A model generated the notes under the pieces. It was not told the origin of the DNA. It worked only from the letters and a program-made list of their open reading frames with translations, and ran no database searches. The position numbers were made by a program, and so were the translations under genes. Below, piece by piece: positions 243 through 33,527 of a stretch of 64,000 bases of DNA (positions are counted from its first letter, which is position 1; each line of letters starts with the position of its first letter). Source of the DNA: Streptomyces sp. SS1-1 (GTDB taxonomy: Bacteria > Actinomycetota > Actinomycetes > Streptomycetales > Streptomycetaceae); the NCBI RefSeq assembly GCF_008973465.1, contig NZ_WBXN01000004.1, positions 4,442,501 through 4,506,500 of the forward strand. Direction: 5' to 3'.

Positions 243-2948
243 TCACGGCGTGAGCGTCTGCCCCAGGTGGGCGCCGGACGGCGTGCCCAGCGGAGTCCTG
301 CTGAGGATGACGGTCTTGCCGAAGCCGGGGCCCGCGCCGCCGCTCGGGACGTACATGAGGATGCCGTTGCCGGCGTCCTCGCCCTCGACGCCCATGACCA
401 GGTCGGCCCGGCCGTACCCGGTCAGGTCGGTGAGCGACACGGACGAGCCGGCCGTGTCACCGGACTCCGAGACGCCCGGCACCCCGGACGTGTCCTGGGA
501 GAACGCGACCGAACCGGCGCCGGTCAGGCCGGACGCGGTGCCCTTGAGGAGCACCGACATACCGGCGTTGGACCGGTTGCCGGAGCGGCTGATGTCCTCG
601 CCGGGCAGACCGACCAGGGCGTCCGCGTACCCGTCGGCGTTCTGGTCGGCGACCGACACCGAGCCGCCGAAGGCGTCACCGGCCTCGTTGGAGCCGGGGA
701 CGGACGCCGTGTTCTGGTGGATCACCTTCATACCGGTGGTGGTGAACCCGGCGGAGGTGCCGAACAGCATGGTCACCTGGCCGCCCGTGGCGGCACCCGA
801 CTCGGCGACGTACGGCTGGCCGATGACGATGTCGTCGTACCCGTTGCCGTCCACGTCCCCGGCCGCGACCGCGCGCCCGCCCTTGACGGAGAGGACGCCC
901 GCCTTGGTCAGGCCCGTCGCCGAACCGGCGAAGCGGACCACCCGGCCGATACCGCCGGTGTCACGGTAGTTGAGGGCCACGTCCGCGTAGCCGTCCCGGT
1001 TGAAGTCGCCCGTGGCGGCGTCCAGGTACGCGATCGCGCCGGTGGCCGAGGTCAGCGTGCCGGTGCTGGTTTTCCCGCCGGTGAGCCGGGCGTTCCAGTT
1101 GCCGCCCCTGCCGGTGCCGGCCGCGAAGACGTCCGCCGTGCCGTCGCCGTCGAAGTCGCCGACCGCCACGGTCGAGCCGAGCCTGGCGCCGGTGGCCGTG
1201 ACCGAGCCCGAGGTGGTGTACGAGAAGCCGGAGTCCAGCGCCGGGCCGTACAGCACGGTGACCGCGCCGCGGTCCGCGTGGCCGCTGGTGTCGTCCTCGC
1301 CGGGCACGCCGATCGCGAGGTCCGCGTAGCCGTCGCCGTTGACGTCGCCCCACGCCGTGGCGGTGCCGAACGCGTCGCCGGACTCGTGGGAGCCGGGCAC
1401 CCCGGTGCTGCTCTGGCTGATCGTCCTCTTCGCCGCCAGGACGGGACCGGCGGTGCCACCCGGGACGACGGTGACGGTGCCGCCGCCGCTCAGCGCGCGG
1501 GGCGTGCCCGCGGCCAGGTCGGCCAGCCCGTCACGGTCGGTGTCCGAGGTGGGCAGGGCGTGCGAGATACCCGGCGTCGCGGCGAGCTGGGCGATCCGGG
1601 ACAGCTTCGGGTACAGGTTCGCGCCCGGGCAGGCCGTGGAGTTGGTGTCCCGGTGCCCGAGGACCCGGGGCAGCGTGACGGAGGCGCCCAGCGGGAACTT
1701 GTTGCCGCTGGCCCCCTGCGGGACGCCGGACGTCAGAGCGACCTTGCCGGTCGGGTCGATGCCGTACATCCCGAACTTCCAGGCCACGATCCGGGCGATG
1801 GCGTCCAGGCCGGCCTTGGTCGGCTGGGCGCTCTCGAAGTTGCCGATGTACGAGATGCCGACCGTGTCGGTGTTGAACCCGGCGTCGTGCGCCCCGATGA
1901 CCGGCAGGTCCATCCCGCCGCTGCGCCCCTCGAAGATCTGGCCGCAGCGGTCGACGACGAAGTTGTAGCCGATGTCGAAGTAGCCCTGGCTGAAGTGGGA
2001 CTGCTGGATGGTCCGCATCCGGGCCCGCGAGTCGGCGCAGGACACCGTGTTGTCGGTGTCGACGCCGGTGTGGTGGATCACGGCGGCCTTGATCGTCTCG
2101 GCGTACGTCGGCGTGCCGTCGTAGTCCGTGGACGCGCCCCACTCGGCCTGCGTGATGATCGGCGGCTTCGCGACCGTGGAGGGCCGGGGCGCCGGGGCGG
2201 TCGGCGTGGGGGACGGGGACGCGGTGGGGGCGCCGGTGTCCGTCGGCGTGTCCGCCGGGACCGGGGCCTCGGTGGTCACCGGGTCGGTCGTGGCCGGCGT
2301 CCCGGTGGGCTCGTCGGTCGTCGCGGGGTCCGTCGGAGGGTCCGTCGGGGTCCGCGTCGCCGGGGCCGTGGTCTCCTCGGCGGAGAACGCGGCCGGGCGG
2401 GGCGCGCCCTGCGGGTCCGTGCCCGGGTCGAGCAGCTTGACGTCCATGCCGGACGGCTGGCCCTTCGCCTCGGTGCCGTCCGCGTTCACGACCCTCAGCT
2501 CGACGCCGTCGGAGTCACCGGTCCACACCGACTCCGTACCGCCGCGCAGAGCCGCCCGCTCGCCCTCCGCGCCGTCCGCCTGGCTGGGCTCCAGCGTGAT
2601 CCGCCGCCACGCCGACCACTTCCCGGTGTCCAGGTCGCGGGTGCGCACCTCGGGCGTGCCCTTGGCCTGCGCCTCCGGGTCGTTCCAGGTCAGCACGACC
2701 GCGCTGAAGCGTGCCGTGCTCCGCCTCTCCAGGCCCTTGCGCCCCGCGCCGCGGTCCTTGAGCTTGAGCGTGTGGATCGCGGGCCCGCGGCTCTCGCGCG
2801 CGTCGTCGGCCTTCGTCGACGGATCGGCCATGGCGTAGGTCACCACGCCGGCGGCGCTCACGACCACGGCCCCCACGGTCAGCCACGCACGTCTCTTCAG
2901 ACTGAGCGGCCTGTACGCATGAGTCTTACGAGGACTCAACTGTCCCAC
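243..2948 (-). CDS. Peptidoglycan-recognition N-acetylmuramoyl-L-alanine amidase with FG-GAP repeats
   Basis: Predicted exported zinc amidase (901 aa) that would cleave the MurNAc-L-Ala bond of peptidoglycan. The N-terminus has basic residues and a hydrophobic segment (about residues 19-42). A Pro/Thr/Ala-rich linker (about 190-265) precedes a PGRP/amidase_2 domain (about 268-460) with zinc-ligand signatures VIHHTG, VLGHRDT and TACPG. The C-terminal half holds FG-GAP/VCBS repeats of the DxDxDGxxDL kind, such as DTDRDGLADLAAG and GDVNGDGYADLAIGVPGEDD, which form integrin-alpha-like calcium-binding beta-propeller blades. They probably mediate surface or matrix binding. It is monocistronic and convergent with the left-edge gene. 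ATG at 2948 gives the full export signal. Confidence 0.92.
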   Translation of the reverse strand: MGQLSPRKTHAYRPLSLKRRAWLTVGAVVVSAAGVVTYAMADPSTKADDARESRGPAIHTLKLKDRGAGRKGLERRSTARFSAVVLTWNDPEAQAKGTPEVRTRDLDTGKWSAWRRITLEPSQADGAEGERAALRGGTESVWTGDSDGVELRVVNADGTEAKGQPSGMDVKLLDPGTDPQGAPRPAAFSAEETTAPATRTPTDPPTDPATTDEPTGTPATTDPVTTEAPVPADTPTDTGAPTASPSPTPTAPAPRPSTVAKPPIITQAEWGASTDYDGTPTYAETIKAAVIHHTGVDTDNTVSCADSRARMRTIQQSHFSQGYFDIGYNFVVDRCGQIFEGRSGGMDLPVIGAHDAGFNTDTVGISYIGNFESAQPTKAGLDAIARIVAWKFGMYGIDPTGKVALTSGVPQGASGNKFPLGASVTLPRVLGHRDTNSTACPGANLYPKLSRIAQLAATPGISHALPTSDTDRDGLADLAAGTPRALSGGGTVTVVPGGTAGPVLAAKRTISQSSTGVPGSHESGDAFGTATAWGDVNGDGYADLAIGVPGEDDTSGHADRGAVTVLYGPALDSGFSYTTSGSVTATGARLGSTVAVGDFDGDGTADVFAAGTGRGGNWNARLTGGKTSTGTLTSATGAIAYLDAATGDFNRDGYADVALNYRDTGGIGRVVRFAGSATGLTKAGVLSVKGGRAVAAGDVDGNGYDDIVIGQPYVAESGAATGGQVTMLFGTSAGFTTTGMKVIHQNTASVPGSNEAGDAFGGSVSVADQNADGYADALVGLPGEDISRSGNRSNAGMSVLLKGTASGLTGAGSVAFSQDTSGVPGVSESGDTAGSSVSLTDLTGYGRADLVMGVEGEDAGNGILMYVPSGGAGPGFGKTVILSRTPLGTPSGAHLGQTLTP

Positions 2949-3052
2949 CCCTATGAGCAGTCACGGATGCCACACCTGTCACACAGGTGGCGTTTACACA
3001 CAGCGCACTCACAGCCGAAACCGTCACCCGGCGCCGCACGGGAGGGACACGG

Positions 3053-3099: not shown

Positions 3100-3987
3100 T
3101 CAGCCCGCCCAGACCTCGGCCTCGTCGGCCGGGACGGTGGTGGCCAGGCCCAGCTCCTTGCGGGCCGGGACCGACGCGTTGGGGTCGATGCCGTCGAACG
3201 CGGAGTCGTAGGCGATGTAGAACGCGTCGGCGTCGGCGGCGTTCGCGGCCTTCTTCCAGTCGGCGGCGGCCTTCTTCAGGGTCGCGCGCAGCTTGGCCAC
3301 CTCGGCGCCCTTGACGTCCTTCAGCCCGTCGACGTGCGTGGTGAGGGCGGCCGCGACGGCCTTGGCCTGCTTCTTGTAACCCGCCAGGTCGTCCTCGACG
3401 GCGTCCTTCTCGGACTGGTTCGCCCACAGCGCCTCGTAGACGCCGTTCGAACCCTTCAGGAACGTGGCCTGCCCGGGCTCGAGGGACTTGGCGGTGTTCA
3501 GCGTGCCGCTGAACTTGCCGTCCTCCTTGGTGTACGTGCAGCTGACCGCGCGGTCGCCGGTCGCCCAGCTCTCCTTGGTCGGCGTGTAGTAGAAGAGCGA
3601 CACGCCCTTGGGGAGCGCCCAGGTGTCCGGGGAGAACTTCTGCGCCTCGACCGGGCACTGGTCGTCCGCGATCGTGGAGACACCGTCCTCGCCCGGGAAC
3701 TCCTTGCCCTTGTCGATCGAGAACTCGCCCACGACCTGACCCACATGGGCCTCCTCGCACGGCACGATCTCCACGGTGAGGGCCGTCCCCTCGGCCTTGC
3801 CGTTCGGGTTGTAGCAGTCACCGATGTCCAGGGAGAACACCGAGCGCTGGCGGGCGACCTTCTTCGCGCCGTCCTTGGCGCTGTCGACGGCGTCGGAGAC
3901 GCCCGAACACCCCACCGCCCCGGCGGCGATCAGAGCGACGACGGCGGAGACGCCGCGGAGGGAGCGGGAGGGGGCATGGGTAGCCAT
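3100..3987 (-). CDS. Septum-formation-family lipoprotein
   Basis: A 295-aa predicted lipoprotein. The signal peptide ends in a lipobox-like stretch AAGAVGC with Cys27 as the acylation site. Residues about 50-190 resemble the actinobacterial septum-formation domain (PF13845 type): GDCYN near its start, conserved cysteines (IVPCEEAHVGQVVGEF, DDQCPVE, AVSCTYT), and an aromatic-rich core. The last 100 residues are charged and helical, with many Lys and Ala. The family is linked by annotation to septum formation, but a biochemical role is not established. It is divergent from the first ECF sigma gene across a 200-nt or longer promoter region. Confidence 0.82.
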   Translation of the reverse strand: MATHAPSRSLRGVSAVVALIAAGAVGCSGVSDAVDSAKDGAKKVARQRSVFSLDIGDCYNPNGKAEGTALTVEIVPCEEAHVGQVVGEFSIDKGKEFPGEDGVSTIADDQCPVEAQKFSPDTWALPKGVSLFYYTPTKESWATGDRAVSCTYTKEDGKFSGTLNTAKSLEPGQATFLKGSNGVYEALWANQSEKDAVEDDLAGYKKQAKAVAAALTTHVDGLKDVKGAEVAKLRATLKKAAADWKKAANAADADAFYIAYDSAFDGIDPNASVPARKELGLATTVPADEAEVWAG

Positions 3988-30408: not shown

Positions 30409-31701
30409 ATGGCTGTTTTGTCGACGGACGCCATCTCCGTCATCCGCACCAAGCGGGACCGCGGCGAGCTCAGCGACGCACAGATCGACTGGGTCATCGA
30501 CGCGTACACCCGCGGGGAGGTCGCCGACGAGCAGATGTCCGCGCTCGCCATGGCGATCCTGCTCAACGGCATGAACCGCCGCGAGATCGCCCGCTGGACC
30601 GCCGCGATGATCGCGAGCGGCGAGCGCATGGACTTCTCCTCGCTGTCCCGCCCCACGGCCGACAAGCACTCCACCGGCGGCGTCGGCGACAAGATCACCC
30701 TGCCGCTCGCGCCCCTGGTCGCCGCGTGCGGCGCCGCCGTCCCGCAGCTCTCCGGCCGCGGCCTCGGCCACACCGGCGGCACCCTGGACAAGCTGGAGTC
30801 CATCCCCGGCTGGCGCGCGCTGCTGTCCAACGAGGAGATGCTGTCCGTCCTCGACACCACCGGGGCCGTGATCTGCGCGGCCGGTGACGGACTCGCCCCC
30901 GCCGACAAGAAGCTGTACGCCCTGCGGGACGTCACCGGCACCGTCGAGGCCATCCCGCTGATCGCCTCCTCGATCATGTCGAAGAAGATCGCCGAGGGCA
31001 CCGGCTCGCTCGTCCTCGACGTGAAGGTCGGCTCCGGCGCCTTCATGAAGACCATCGAGGACGCCCGCGAACTCGCCTCGACGATGGTCGGCCTCGGCAC
31101 CGACCACGGCGTGAGGACGGTCGCCCTGCTCACCGACATGTCCACCCCGCTCGGCCTCACCGCGGGCAACGCGCTGGAGGTCCGCGAGTCCGTCGAGGTC
31201 CTGGCCGGAGGCGGCCCCGCCGACGTGGTCGAGCTGACCCTCGCCCTGGCCCGCGAGATGCTGGCGGCGGCCGGCCTGAAGGACGCCGACCCGGCGAAGG
31301 CCCTGGCCGACGGCTCCGCGATGGACGTCTGGCGGCGCATGATCGCCGCCCAGGGCGGCGACCTGGACGCCGAACTGCCCGTCGCGCGCGAGCAGCACGT
31401 CGTCACCGCCCCCGCCTCCGGTGTCCTCACCCGCCTCGACGCCTACGACATCGGCGTCGCCGCCTGGCGCCTGGGCGCCGGACGCGCCCGCAAGGAGGAC
31501 CCGGTGCAGGCGGGCGCCGGCGTCGAGATGCACGCCAAGCCCGGCGACACGGTGACCGCGGGCCAGCCCCTGCTGACCCTGCACACGGACACCCCGGAGC
31601 GCTTCGAGTACGCGCTCCAGGCGGTGGAGGGCTCGTACGACGTCAGCCCGGCCGGCACCGGCTTCACGGCGTCGCCGGTGGTGCTGGAACGTATCGCCTG
31701 A
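30409..31701 (+). CDS. deoA: Thymidine phosphorylase
   Basis: A 430-aa pyrimidine-nucleoside phosphorylase that cleaves thymidine/deoxyuridine with phosphate to base and 2-deoxyribose-1-phosphate. The N-terminal glycosyltransferase-fold domain has ISVIRTKRDRGELSDAQIDW. The phosphate/substrate loop is PTADKHSTGGVGDKITLPLA, followed by SGRGLGHTGGTLDKLESI and IMSKKIAEGTGSLVLDVKVG. The C-terminal PYNP domain begins near residue 345. GGAAGGAAAG precedes ATG 30409. It is downstream of cdd and likely shares its promoter and nucleoside-responsive operator. Confidence 0.94.
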   Translation: MAVLSTDAISVIRTKRDRGELSDAQIDWVIDAYTRGEVADEQMSALAMAILLNGMNRREIARWTAAMIASGERMDFSSLSRPTADKHSTGGVGDKITLPLAPLVAACGAAVPQLSGRGLGHTGGTLDKLESIPGWRALLSNEEMLSVLDTTGAVICAAGDGLAPADKKLYALRDVTGTVEAIPLIASSIMSKKIAEGTGSLVLDVKVGSGAFMKTIEDARELASTMVGLGTDHGVRTVALLTDMSTPLGLTAGNALEVRESVEVLAGGGPADVVELTLALAREMLAAAGLKDADPAKALADGSAMDVWRRMIAAQGGDLDAELPVAREQHVVTAPASGVLTRLDAYDIGVAAWRLGAGRARKEDPVQAGAGVEMHAKPGDTVTAGQPLLTLHTDTPERFEYALQAVEGSYDVSPAGTGFTASPVVLERIA

Positions 31702-32061
31702 CCAGGCGGTTTCCCTTTCGGGTGAACGGGATCGGTGGACCACCGCCGGTCCCGTTCGGCATGCTGGGATCGGTGACGCACCGATAGGAGACCGCCAGTG
31801 CGACACGAAGTCGCTCCACCCAAGTGGTTGGTCTGTGTGAGGAAAAGAGGTCATGAGCAGGCCATCTCGGACCAGTGTCCAAGGTCCGTCCCCACTTCCG
31901 CATGCGTCGCTGGCAACGGCGGGGTGTGAAGCCGGAAGCGCAAGCCCAAGAGCGGCACGGCCATCGGACCGCAACAGGCGAGGGGAAGGCCGGACGGGCT
32001 AATGAAAATGAACCCTTGACGACATCTCGTAACTCCTGTGCCGCGTCGATGGTGAGCTGTC

Positions 32062-32068
32062 GGCGGCA
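32062..32068 (+). other. Candidate EBS1 loop of the intron
   Basis: GGCGGCA forms the loop of a 5-bp CTGTC/GACAG hairpin (32057-32073). Its GGCGG is complementary to CCGCC at 31792-31796 of the upstream exon. The pairing is displaced one base from the splice junction, so the assignment is tentative. Confidence 0.45.
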
Positions 32069-32448
32069 GACAGGCCCTGGCGCGGAAGAGCGCACGACGA
32101 CCCCAGAGGATTGGTGCCGAAGGGGGAGGACACCGTCGGGCCCGGGATTAAGAGGGAGCCCACCCCGGTCGCATCTTGTGGGAGCGGAACGTGGAAACCC
32201 CGTTGGAGTCCGGGAGTGATCCCGGTAAGCCGGAGGCGACGAAGGACCAATCCTCCAGCGGGACAGGATGATCCGAGAAGCGAACGCCGACAGGGCGAAA
32301 GCCCAGAGGAAAAGGACGAGGAGACCTCAGCCGCGTCCCATAACTCGTCGGACACGAGGCGGTGCCTCGGCCCGAAAGGGAGCCCACGCGGATCAGGTAG
32401 GCCCGTGAAGAAGAACTGCGAAGAGACCCGAACCGAAGGGCAAGTTGG

Positions 32449-32780
32449 ATGCCGAAGGAAGGTGTGGCAGTGGCCGCCGTGGCGGCGATGCCTCCCACGA
32501 CGGCGAACGGACCGGAGGACCACGCCCAGACCTGGCACAGCATCGACTGGGCCAAGGCAGAGGCGTCGGTAAGGCGACTGAGGCAGCGCATCTTCACAGC
32601 CGCGCAGGAAGGGGACCTGAAGAAGGTCCGAAACTTGCAGAAGCTCATGCTGCGCTCCCACTCGAACACGCTCGTGAGCGTGAAGCGGGTGACGCAGCAG
32701 AGCACAGGCCGTCGGACGGCCGGGATCGACCAGGAACGTGCGCTCACTCCGAACGCGCGAGGACGGCTGGCCGCTGAGAT
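32449..32780 (+). pseudogene. Remnant of the intron-encoded reverse transcriptase/maturase (N-terminus only)
   Basis: The first 110 codons match the start of group II intron RT-maturases: HAQTWHSIDWAKAEASVRRL, QRIFTAAQEGDLKKVRNLQK, then SNTLVSVKRVTQQSTGRRTA and GIDQERALTPNARGRLA. After residue 110 the similarity stops, and the frame runs directly into domain V sequence. The RT palm (YxDD), thumb, X and endonuclease domains are all missing, so at least 1 kb was deleted. The fragment cannot have reverse transcriptase activity. Confidence 0.8.
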
Positions 32781-32941
32781 CACAGCGGAACGCTCGCCTG
32801 GCACGCCGGCGACCACAGAAGGGCCAAGCAAGATGACCGACCCGCGTGACTCCAGGGGCCCGCTTGAGCCGGATGCGGTGAACAGCCGCACGTCCGGTTC
32901 TGAGGGGGCCGGAGGGCGGCAACGCCCTCCGGCTACCCGAC

Positions 32942-33527
32942 TGAGCGCACTCACCGTGAGCCAGGACCCCGACCAGAACTGGGACGACCTCGTCCGGTTC
33001 TGGGAGGAGATGGAATGGCCCGAGGGCAGCAAGGTGGAGATCATCGAGGGGATCATCACCGTGTCACCTGCTCCCGCGTCCCGCCACAACGTGATCGCGG
33101 AACGTATTCAGCGTCGCCTCTACTCCGTGATCCCCGATGAAACTGGGGAATCTTCCAGACGCTGGCCATCTCCGTGCCGTCCCGTCTGGGCATGCTCATC
33201 CCGGACCTGCTCGTGGCGCCCGTGGAGGAGTGCGCGGAGGCGGAGTCCCACATCCCGGCGGCCCTGGCCGAACTCGTCGTCGAGGTGACCTCCCGGTCCA
33301 ACGCCCAGCACGACCGCGTCAGCAAGCCCGCCGCGTACGCCACCGCCGGCATCCCGCTCTACCTGCTCATCGACCGCTGGGCTCCCGGCGGCCCGACCGC
33401 CACGCTGTTCGGGGAGCCGAAGGGCGACGTCTACCGGGTGCTGAGGGCGGTCAAGTTCGGAGACCCGATCACGCTGCCGGAACCGTTCGGCGTCACGATC
33501 GACACCGGTGAGTTCCCCGTCGACTGA
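32942..33527 (+). pseudogene. Uma2-family (DUF820) restriction endonuclease-like gene, intron-split and frameshifted
   Basis: The coding sequence would start with A at 31797 joined to TG at 32942 after intron removal, giving MSALTVSQDPDQ. The first part (frame of 32944) has WEEMEWPEGSKVEIIEGIIT, SPAPASRHNVIAERIQRRLY and SVIPDE. Near 33138 one base is missing, and the remainder continues in another frame: WGIFQTLAISVPSRLGMLIP, DLLVAPVEE, LAELVVEVTSRSNAQHDRVS, AGIPLYLLIDRWAPGGPTAT, ending GEFPVD at 33527. Uma2 proteins have a PD-(D/E)XK nuclease fold and are abundant in Streptomyces with unknown roles. Without splicing the start codon has no ribosome-binding site. The frameshift makes it probably dead. 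Confidence 0.8.

Follow-up and report, generated by a model that had tools for sequence, protein, structure and literature searches.

A decayed group II intron between the A and TG of a Streptomyces Uma2 start codon, from a lineage with an EBS2 complementary to the Shine-Dalgarno sequence

We analyzed a stretch of 64,000 nucleotides from Streptomyces sp. SS1-1 (positions 4,442,501 to 4,506,500 of contig NZ_WBXN01000004.1, assembly GCF_008973465.1; hereafter, the window), and sequence comparisons confirmed that it carries a genuine group II intron located exactly between the A and the TG of the start codon of a Uma2 gene (Table 1). The element is probably a copy of a mobile group II intron that has lost most of its RT. 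The Streptomyces lineage to which it belongs probably targets translation start sites, using an EBS2 that is complementary to the Shine-Dalgarno (SD) sequence. In the window, both partners have degenerated: it is a decayed intron within a decayed gene.

Results

The intron is bounded by the A and the TG of a start codon

The edges of the intron, defined from the sequence and from empty sites, are ATAGGAGACCGCC A(31797)/GTGCGACACG...GGCTACCCGAC(32941)/TG(32942) AGCGCACTC, where the slashes mark the insertion boundaries. The ends (GTGCG...GAC) agree with the group II consensus 5'-GUGYG...AY-3' and are consistent with 25 empty sites. An Rfam search detected D5/D6 at positions 32864-32941 over the full model (RF00029, model positions 1-77, 55.4 bits, E 3.7e-8). 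It also recognized a portion of domain I (D1, 37 bits), and both matches exceed the gathering score. The window copy has the sequence features that define a group II intron, namely D5/D6, domain I, and the EBS1/IBS1, EBS2/IBS2, and EBS3/IBS3 partners. From inspection of the sequence and general knowledge of domain VI, we take the A at position 32935 to be the likely branch nucleotide.

In silico excision of the intron produced AGGAG-ACCGCC-ATGAGCGCACTCACC. At 25 syntenic loci in Streptomyces, this sequence precedes the Uma2 ortholog without interruption, with ATG as the start codon in 22 of them and GTG in 3. Because these loci carry the sequence uninterrupted, the boundaries are right to the base. 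The earlier note on this DNA, which had placed a group II intron with visible domains V and VI precisely between A and TG, is therefore borne out by both the covariance models and the empty sites. It had also predicted that excision restores AGGAG-N7-ATGAGC; the junction is exact, but the spacer consists of 6 nt (ACCGCC) if AGGAG is the SD. Synteny was established with the upstream deoA gene, the 3' end of which is 80-93% identical across intron-bearing and empty relatives. The leader of approximately 75 nt that precedes Uma2 (31720-31796 in the window, and the same in L034-L062) is near-invariant in 25 species, even though Uma2 itself diverges to approximately 70%. This leader contains an inverted repeat resembling a deoA terminator (GAACGGGAtCGGTGG ... 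CCGGTCCCGTTC) and a second inverted repeat, ATCGGTG-ACG-CACCGAT, immediately 5' of the SD.

Table 1. Features of the intron and its surroundings in the window
Feature	Position	Strand	Evidence
deoA/pyrimidine-nucleoside phosphorylase, upstream gene and synteny marker	30409-31701	+	Pfam Glycos_transf_3, PYNP_C, Glycos_trans_3N
SD AGGAG of Uma2 = IBS2	31786-31790	+	Sequence; register by covariation
IBS1 CGCCA (spacer end and A of the start codon)	31793-31797	+	Covariation, 32-34 copies
Group II intron of 1144 nt with an internal deletion	31798-32941	+	Rfam; edges from empty sites and homologous copies
Domain I match (RF02012, group-II-D1D4-7)	31867-31955	+	Rfam
EBS2 CTCCT, complementary to AGGAG (anti-SD)	32033-32037	+	Covariation
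EBS1 TGGTG (TGGCG in G172), pairs with CGCCA	32112-32116	+	Covariation
EBS3 A, pairs with T of ATG (first 3' exon base)	32150	+	Covariation
Remnant of intron-encoded RT ORF, RVT_N only	32449-32799	+	Pfam RVT_N 1.1e-30, domain approximately 32533-32778
Approximate internal-deletion junction (RVT_1, GIIM, HNH gone)	32800-32815		Comparison with full-length G342
Open frame with ATG that crosses D5/D6 to reach Uma2 when the RNA is unspliced (might serve as an alternative start)	32833-32943	+	Sequence
Domain V	32866-32900	+	Rfam alignment
Domain VI and 3' end	32904-32941	+	Rfam alignment
Uma2 gene (3' exon, opens with TG of ATG), frameshifted	32942-33527	+	Pfam Uma2 on 33174-33524; relatives
AAA instead of the single A of relatives: +2 frameshift	33140-33142	+	Comparison with relatives

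The exon-binding sites face the Shine-Dalgarno sequence and the start codon

Exon-intron pairing was tested by covariation in 27 to 34 copies of the wider intron family, inserted at many different sites, and compared with shuffles. EBS1, at intron position 314, is the single place that pairs best with the last six exon bases (4.72 and 4.26 pairs of 6 in two tests; shuffle maxima 3.59 and 3.56), and EBS2, at intron positions 235-236, pairs with exon bases -14 to -8 (4.00 and 4.18, against at most 3.18 and 3.15 in shuffles). The EBS2 signal was retained when the window lineage was left out (4.20 versus a shuffle maximum of 3.03). EBS3, at intron position 353, is complementary to the exon in 23 of 27 copies, a value that none of 1000 shuffles reached (at most 17 copies). 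The resulting pairs in the window are UGGUG/CGCCA for EBS1, which comprises 5 bp only, one of them G-U, CUCCU/AGGAG for EBS2, and A/U for EBS3. The earlier note had mentioned an EBS1-like loop, the position of which it left unspecified; an EBS1 does exist, at the site located by covariation, but it is not the GGCGG loop at approximately 32063-32068. That loop, an apparent complement of CCGCC, was rejected as EBS1 because it is conserved in copies with different exons.

Since AGGAG is the SD of the Uma2 gene, the EBS2 of the lineage, CUCCU, corresponds to the core of the anti-SD of the ribosome. This register accounts for the insertion point: when IBS2 coincides with the SD and IBS1 with the spacer end, reverse splicing falls within the ATG, the A of EBS3 selecting the T.

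All sampled copies of the lineage are located at start codons

To delimit the lineage, we searched the D6 3' end of the intron in approximately 393 sampled Streptomyces genomes and found it in 5: the window genome, G172, G342, G298, and G148, the latter with two copies. All 6 copies are located at A/TGAGCG, after an SD and a spacer ending in A; EBS2 is readable in 4 of them, and the target genes are two only. Five are inserted in Uma2 directly downstream of deoA and 1 at the start of a GNAT gene in G148. The 4 readable members are monophyletic with a support of 100/100 in a tree built from the 5'-terminal 430 nt. Four other species carry the same lineage at the same A/TG position, and one of these has it at a second start codon as well, which indicates that the insertion is more than chance. 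None of the 29 Uma2 loci drawn from genome contigs carries the intron, and a search for the lineage on plasmids returned only relatives at approximately 73% identity. Introns with TGATC-type 3' exons (G012, G371, and G158) were rejected as members because they form a different sublineage with no start-codon evidence.

The full-length copy in G342 measures 2536 nt and lies upstream of an intact Uma2; its 594-aa protein combines RVT_N, RVT_1, GIIM, and HNH domains. In G172 (L092, approximately 1715-3020), the RT of the intron is interrupted by an element with an ORF that by eye resembles an IS3-type transposase; the downstream Uma2 is intact. In G148, the contigs were paired on the basis of gene order and not by sequence across the break. 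On this pairing, the GNAT insertion splits an overlapping stop/start (TCA/TGA GCG) between a membrane-transporter-like ORF upstream and the GNAT gene.

Because 5 of the 6 copies share one homologous site, the independent sites that speak for start-codon specialization are few: those in Uma2 and GNAT and, from a different lineage, that in an SDR gene. We considered that the intron might home specifically to the Uma2 locus by recognizing one conserved sequence upstream of this gene, so that the match between IBS2 and the SD would be a by-product. The predominance of the deoA-Uma2 site, the near-invariance of its leader over approximately 75 nt in 25 species, and the finding that AGGAGACCGCCATGAGCG, even with one mismatch allowed, occurs nowhere else in the window genome would all fit such locus-specific homing. 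However, the GNAT copy is preceded by an upstream sequence unlike that of the Uma2 site (GGGAGACGCGTCA/TGAGCG), and a separate lineage, represented by a 2521-nt intron in G209, splits the A/TG of the SDR gene after AAGGAG (AAGGAGAGCTGACA/TGG). Moreover, EBS2 follows a change of the SD in G298, where the SD is TGGAG and EBS2 is CUCCA, a compensatory change. Altogether, we regard locus-specific homing as rather unlikely, though deserving of serious consideration, and keep homing into translation start sites as the preferred reading.

Three further arrangements were observed in the wider family. Two related introns lie in tandem in L105 (G183:C503), where at positions 3326-3327 an end with CTACCCGAC abuts a start with GTGCGACGTG; L131 (G136:C1) contains at approximately 774-1520 an intron of approximately 0.7 kb that lacks both its RT and its EBS1 regions; and L096, L100, L143, and their relatives form a sublineage located 3' of a repeated palindrome (cagttggcgaagctcgccaactgaagcgctcagt), a repeat family that is apparently its target.

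The intron is more conserved than its host genes

Between intron-bearing hosts, pairwise identity is 80-89% for the 3' ends of deoA and 67-83% for Uma2. The introns are 90-93% identical in their 5' part and 97-99% in their last 140 nt, a higher identity for which constraint on the RNA could partly account. In G061, whose deoA (93%) and Uma2 (94%) are the most similar to those of the window, the site is empty. The higher identity of the intron, the empty site in G061, and the patchy distribution argue more for independent homing of the intron into each of these Uma2 genes than for inheritance by descent.

Both the intron and the Uma2 gene have decayed in the window

Compared with the G342 intron, approximately 1.4 kb is missing from the window copy. 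The intact RT/maturase of a mobile intron, present in G342, is absent from the window copy, which due to the loss of its RT is not an autonomous mobile intron. Searches of the window genome detected neither a GIIM maturase domain nor a second D5/D6 or other intron copy, so that no maturase is evident in trans. With the RT lost except for RVT_N and neither GIIM nor a second D5/D6 in the genome, splicing of the window copy in vivo is doubtful. The internal deletion puts the N-terminal remnant of the RT in frame with Uma2 via D5/D6, forming an ORF (32449-33288, 279 aa) that automatic annotation may call as a gene.

The Uma2 gene of the window contains two extra bases (GATGAAACTGGGG versus GAxGACTGGGG in relatives). 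As a result, only the C-terminal half of the nuclease-like Uma2 domain (PF05685) is matched in the window, and the spliced frame would stop after 115 aa, giving a product without a Uma2 match in Pfam. The reading frames of Uma2 are undamaged in G342, G172, G298, and G148, and the domain is intact in G342 and G172; in G061, the nearest empty relative, Uma2 is 94% identical to that of the window and deoA 93%. Barring a sequencing error, the two extra bases would keep the window Uma2 from becoming translatable even after splicing. Since both the intron and the gene are degraded, the proposal of the earlier note that Uma2 is translatable only after splicing is not literally true for the window genome; the intact relative in G342 fits it much better.

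These observations raise the question of whether the insertion in the window genome is simply dead, meaning that the intron no longer splices there and knocked out Uma2, which then decayed. The deleted RT, the lack of GIIM and of a second D5/D6 in the genome, and the frameshift in Uma2 are what this would predict, and we consider it somewhat more probable than its opposite. Nevertheless, the window copy retains intact domains I, V, and VI as well as intact EBS contacts, so that some self-splicing may persist. A dead insertion would apply to the window copy alone and is compatible with the explanation proposed for the lineage.

Discussion

Our preferred reading is that the window intron derives from mobile elements that encode a protein of the RVT_N, RVT_1, GIIM, HNH type and would be targeted by the pairings that the comparisons showed, namely of EBS2 (CUCCU) with the SD, of EBS1 with the end of the spacer and the A, and of EBS3 with the U of AUG. 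At a site of this kind, reverse splicing would necessarily place the intron between A and TG, and its precise removal by splicing would re-create the SD, spacer, and ATG. The Uma2 genes would have been entered by separate, horizontal retrohoming events, and intact copies such as that in G342, with its complete Uma2, may splice precisely. In unspliced RNA, the SD would be held in the EBS2-IBS2 helix, and initiation would await splicing; we infer that translation of the host gene is gated in this way. Both members of the pair have decayed in the window genome, with most of the RT deleted, no maturase found in trans, and Uma2 frameshifted. A broader proposal, that the anti-SD EBS2 evolved for homing into ribosome-binding sites generally, with the EBS2-SD helix masking the SD, the start codon split, and translation gated by splicing, is unlikely as a whole.

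Uma2 could also be expressed without splicing, from a start within the intron (ATG 32833) or by read-through from the RT frame, producing an N-terminally extended protein. In the window, G172, G342, G298, and G148, the frame of this ATG stays open across D5 and D6 as far as Uma2, and in G209 it continues into SDR; the RT remnant of the window is in frame with Uma2; for this reason, the word "only" in the earlier claim does not hold strictly. However, the SD before ATG 32833 is weak, and in the window the fusion still meets the Uma2 frameshift. The openness of the frame is also not special, because approximately half of the copies located away from start codons are open in it too. We thus consider expression without splicing quite improbable, and return to splicing at the start codon as the preferred reading for intact copies.

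The lineage suggests a simple sequence rule by which a mobile ribozyme can establish itself in start codons, namely imitation of the ribosomal anti-Shine-Dalgarno by the exon-binding site. If intact copies splice, they would constitute a natural bacterial case in which formation of a start codon depends on RNA splicing, and the link between intron targeting, translation initiation, and gene control would be directly testable in Streptomyces. Recognition of SD plus ATG would be a targeting principle comparable with that of retargeted intron tools.

Among known systems, the lineage shares with the group II introns that have an HNH-type RT/maturase (ltrA-like IEP) the GUGCG start, D5/D6, D1, and EBS1/EBS2/EBS3, as well as, in the full-length relative G342, an IEP with RVT_N, RVT_1, GIIM, and HNH. 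It differs from them in its target, a ribosome-binding site plus start codon recognized by an EBS2 complementary to the Shine-Dalgarno, and the window copy also in having lost most of the IEP. The Azotobacter groEL intron belongs to the Michel/Ferat lineages, and its subset has a large 5' insertion that is not seen in the window lineage. This intron lies at the termination codon of groEL, as mentioned in the A. chroococcum genome paper (PMC4465626). Like the introns described here, whose exact removal is predicted from sequence, it sits exactly at a translation signal of its host gene that splicing restores, but the signal is a stop instead of a start codon and the host belongs to a different phylum. 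Group II introns whose splicing bears on the start codon used include, according to the sections consulted, C.te.I1 of C. tetani, which splices alternatively (PMC3919590), and the TeI3 introns of T. elongatus, located between two start codons of the IEP (PMC2882425); those sections report neither a split A/TG nor an SD-complementary EBS2. A search of the open literature turned up no account of a start codon split by a bacterial group II intron or of an EBS2 that pairs with the SD. Provisionally, the element is thus of a known kind with a new choice of target, the Shine-Dalgarno sequence together with the start codon.
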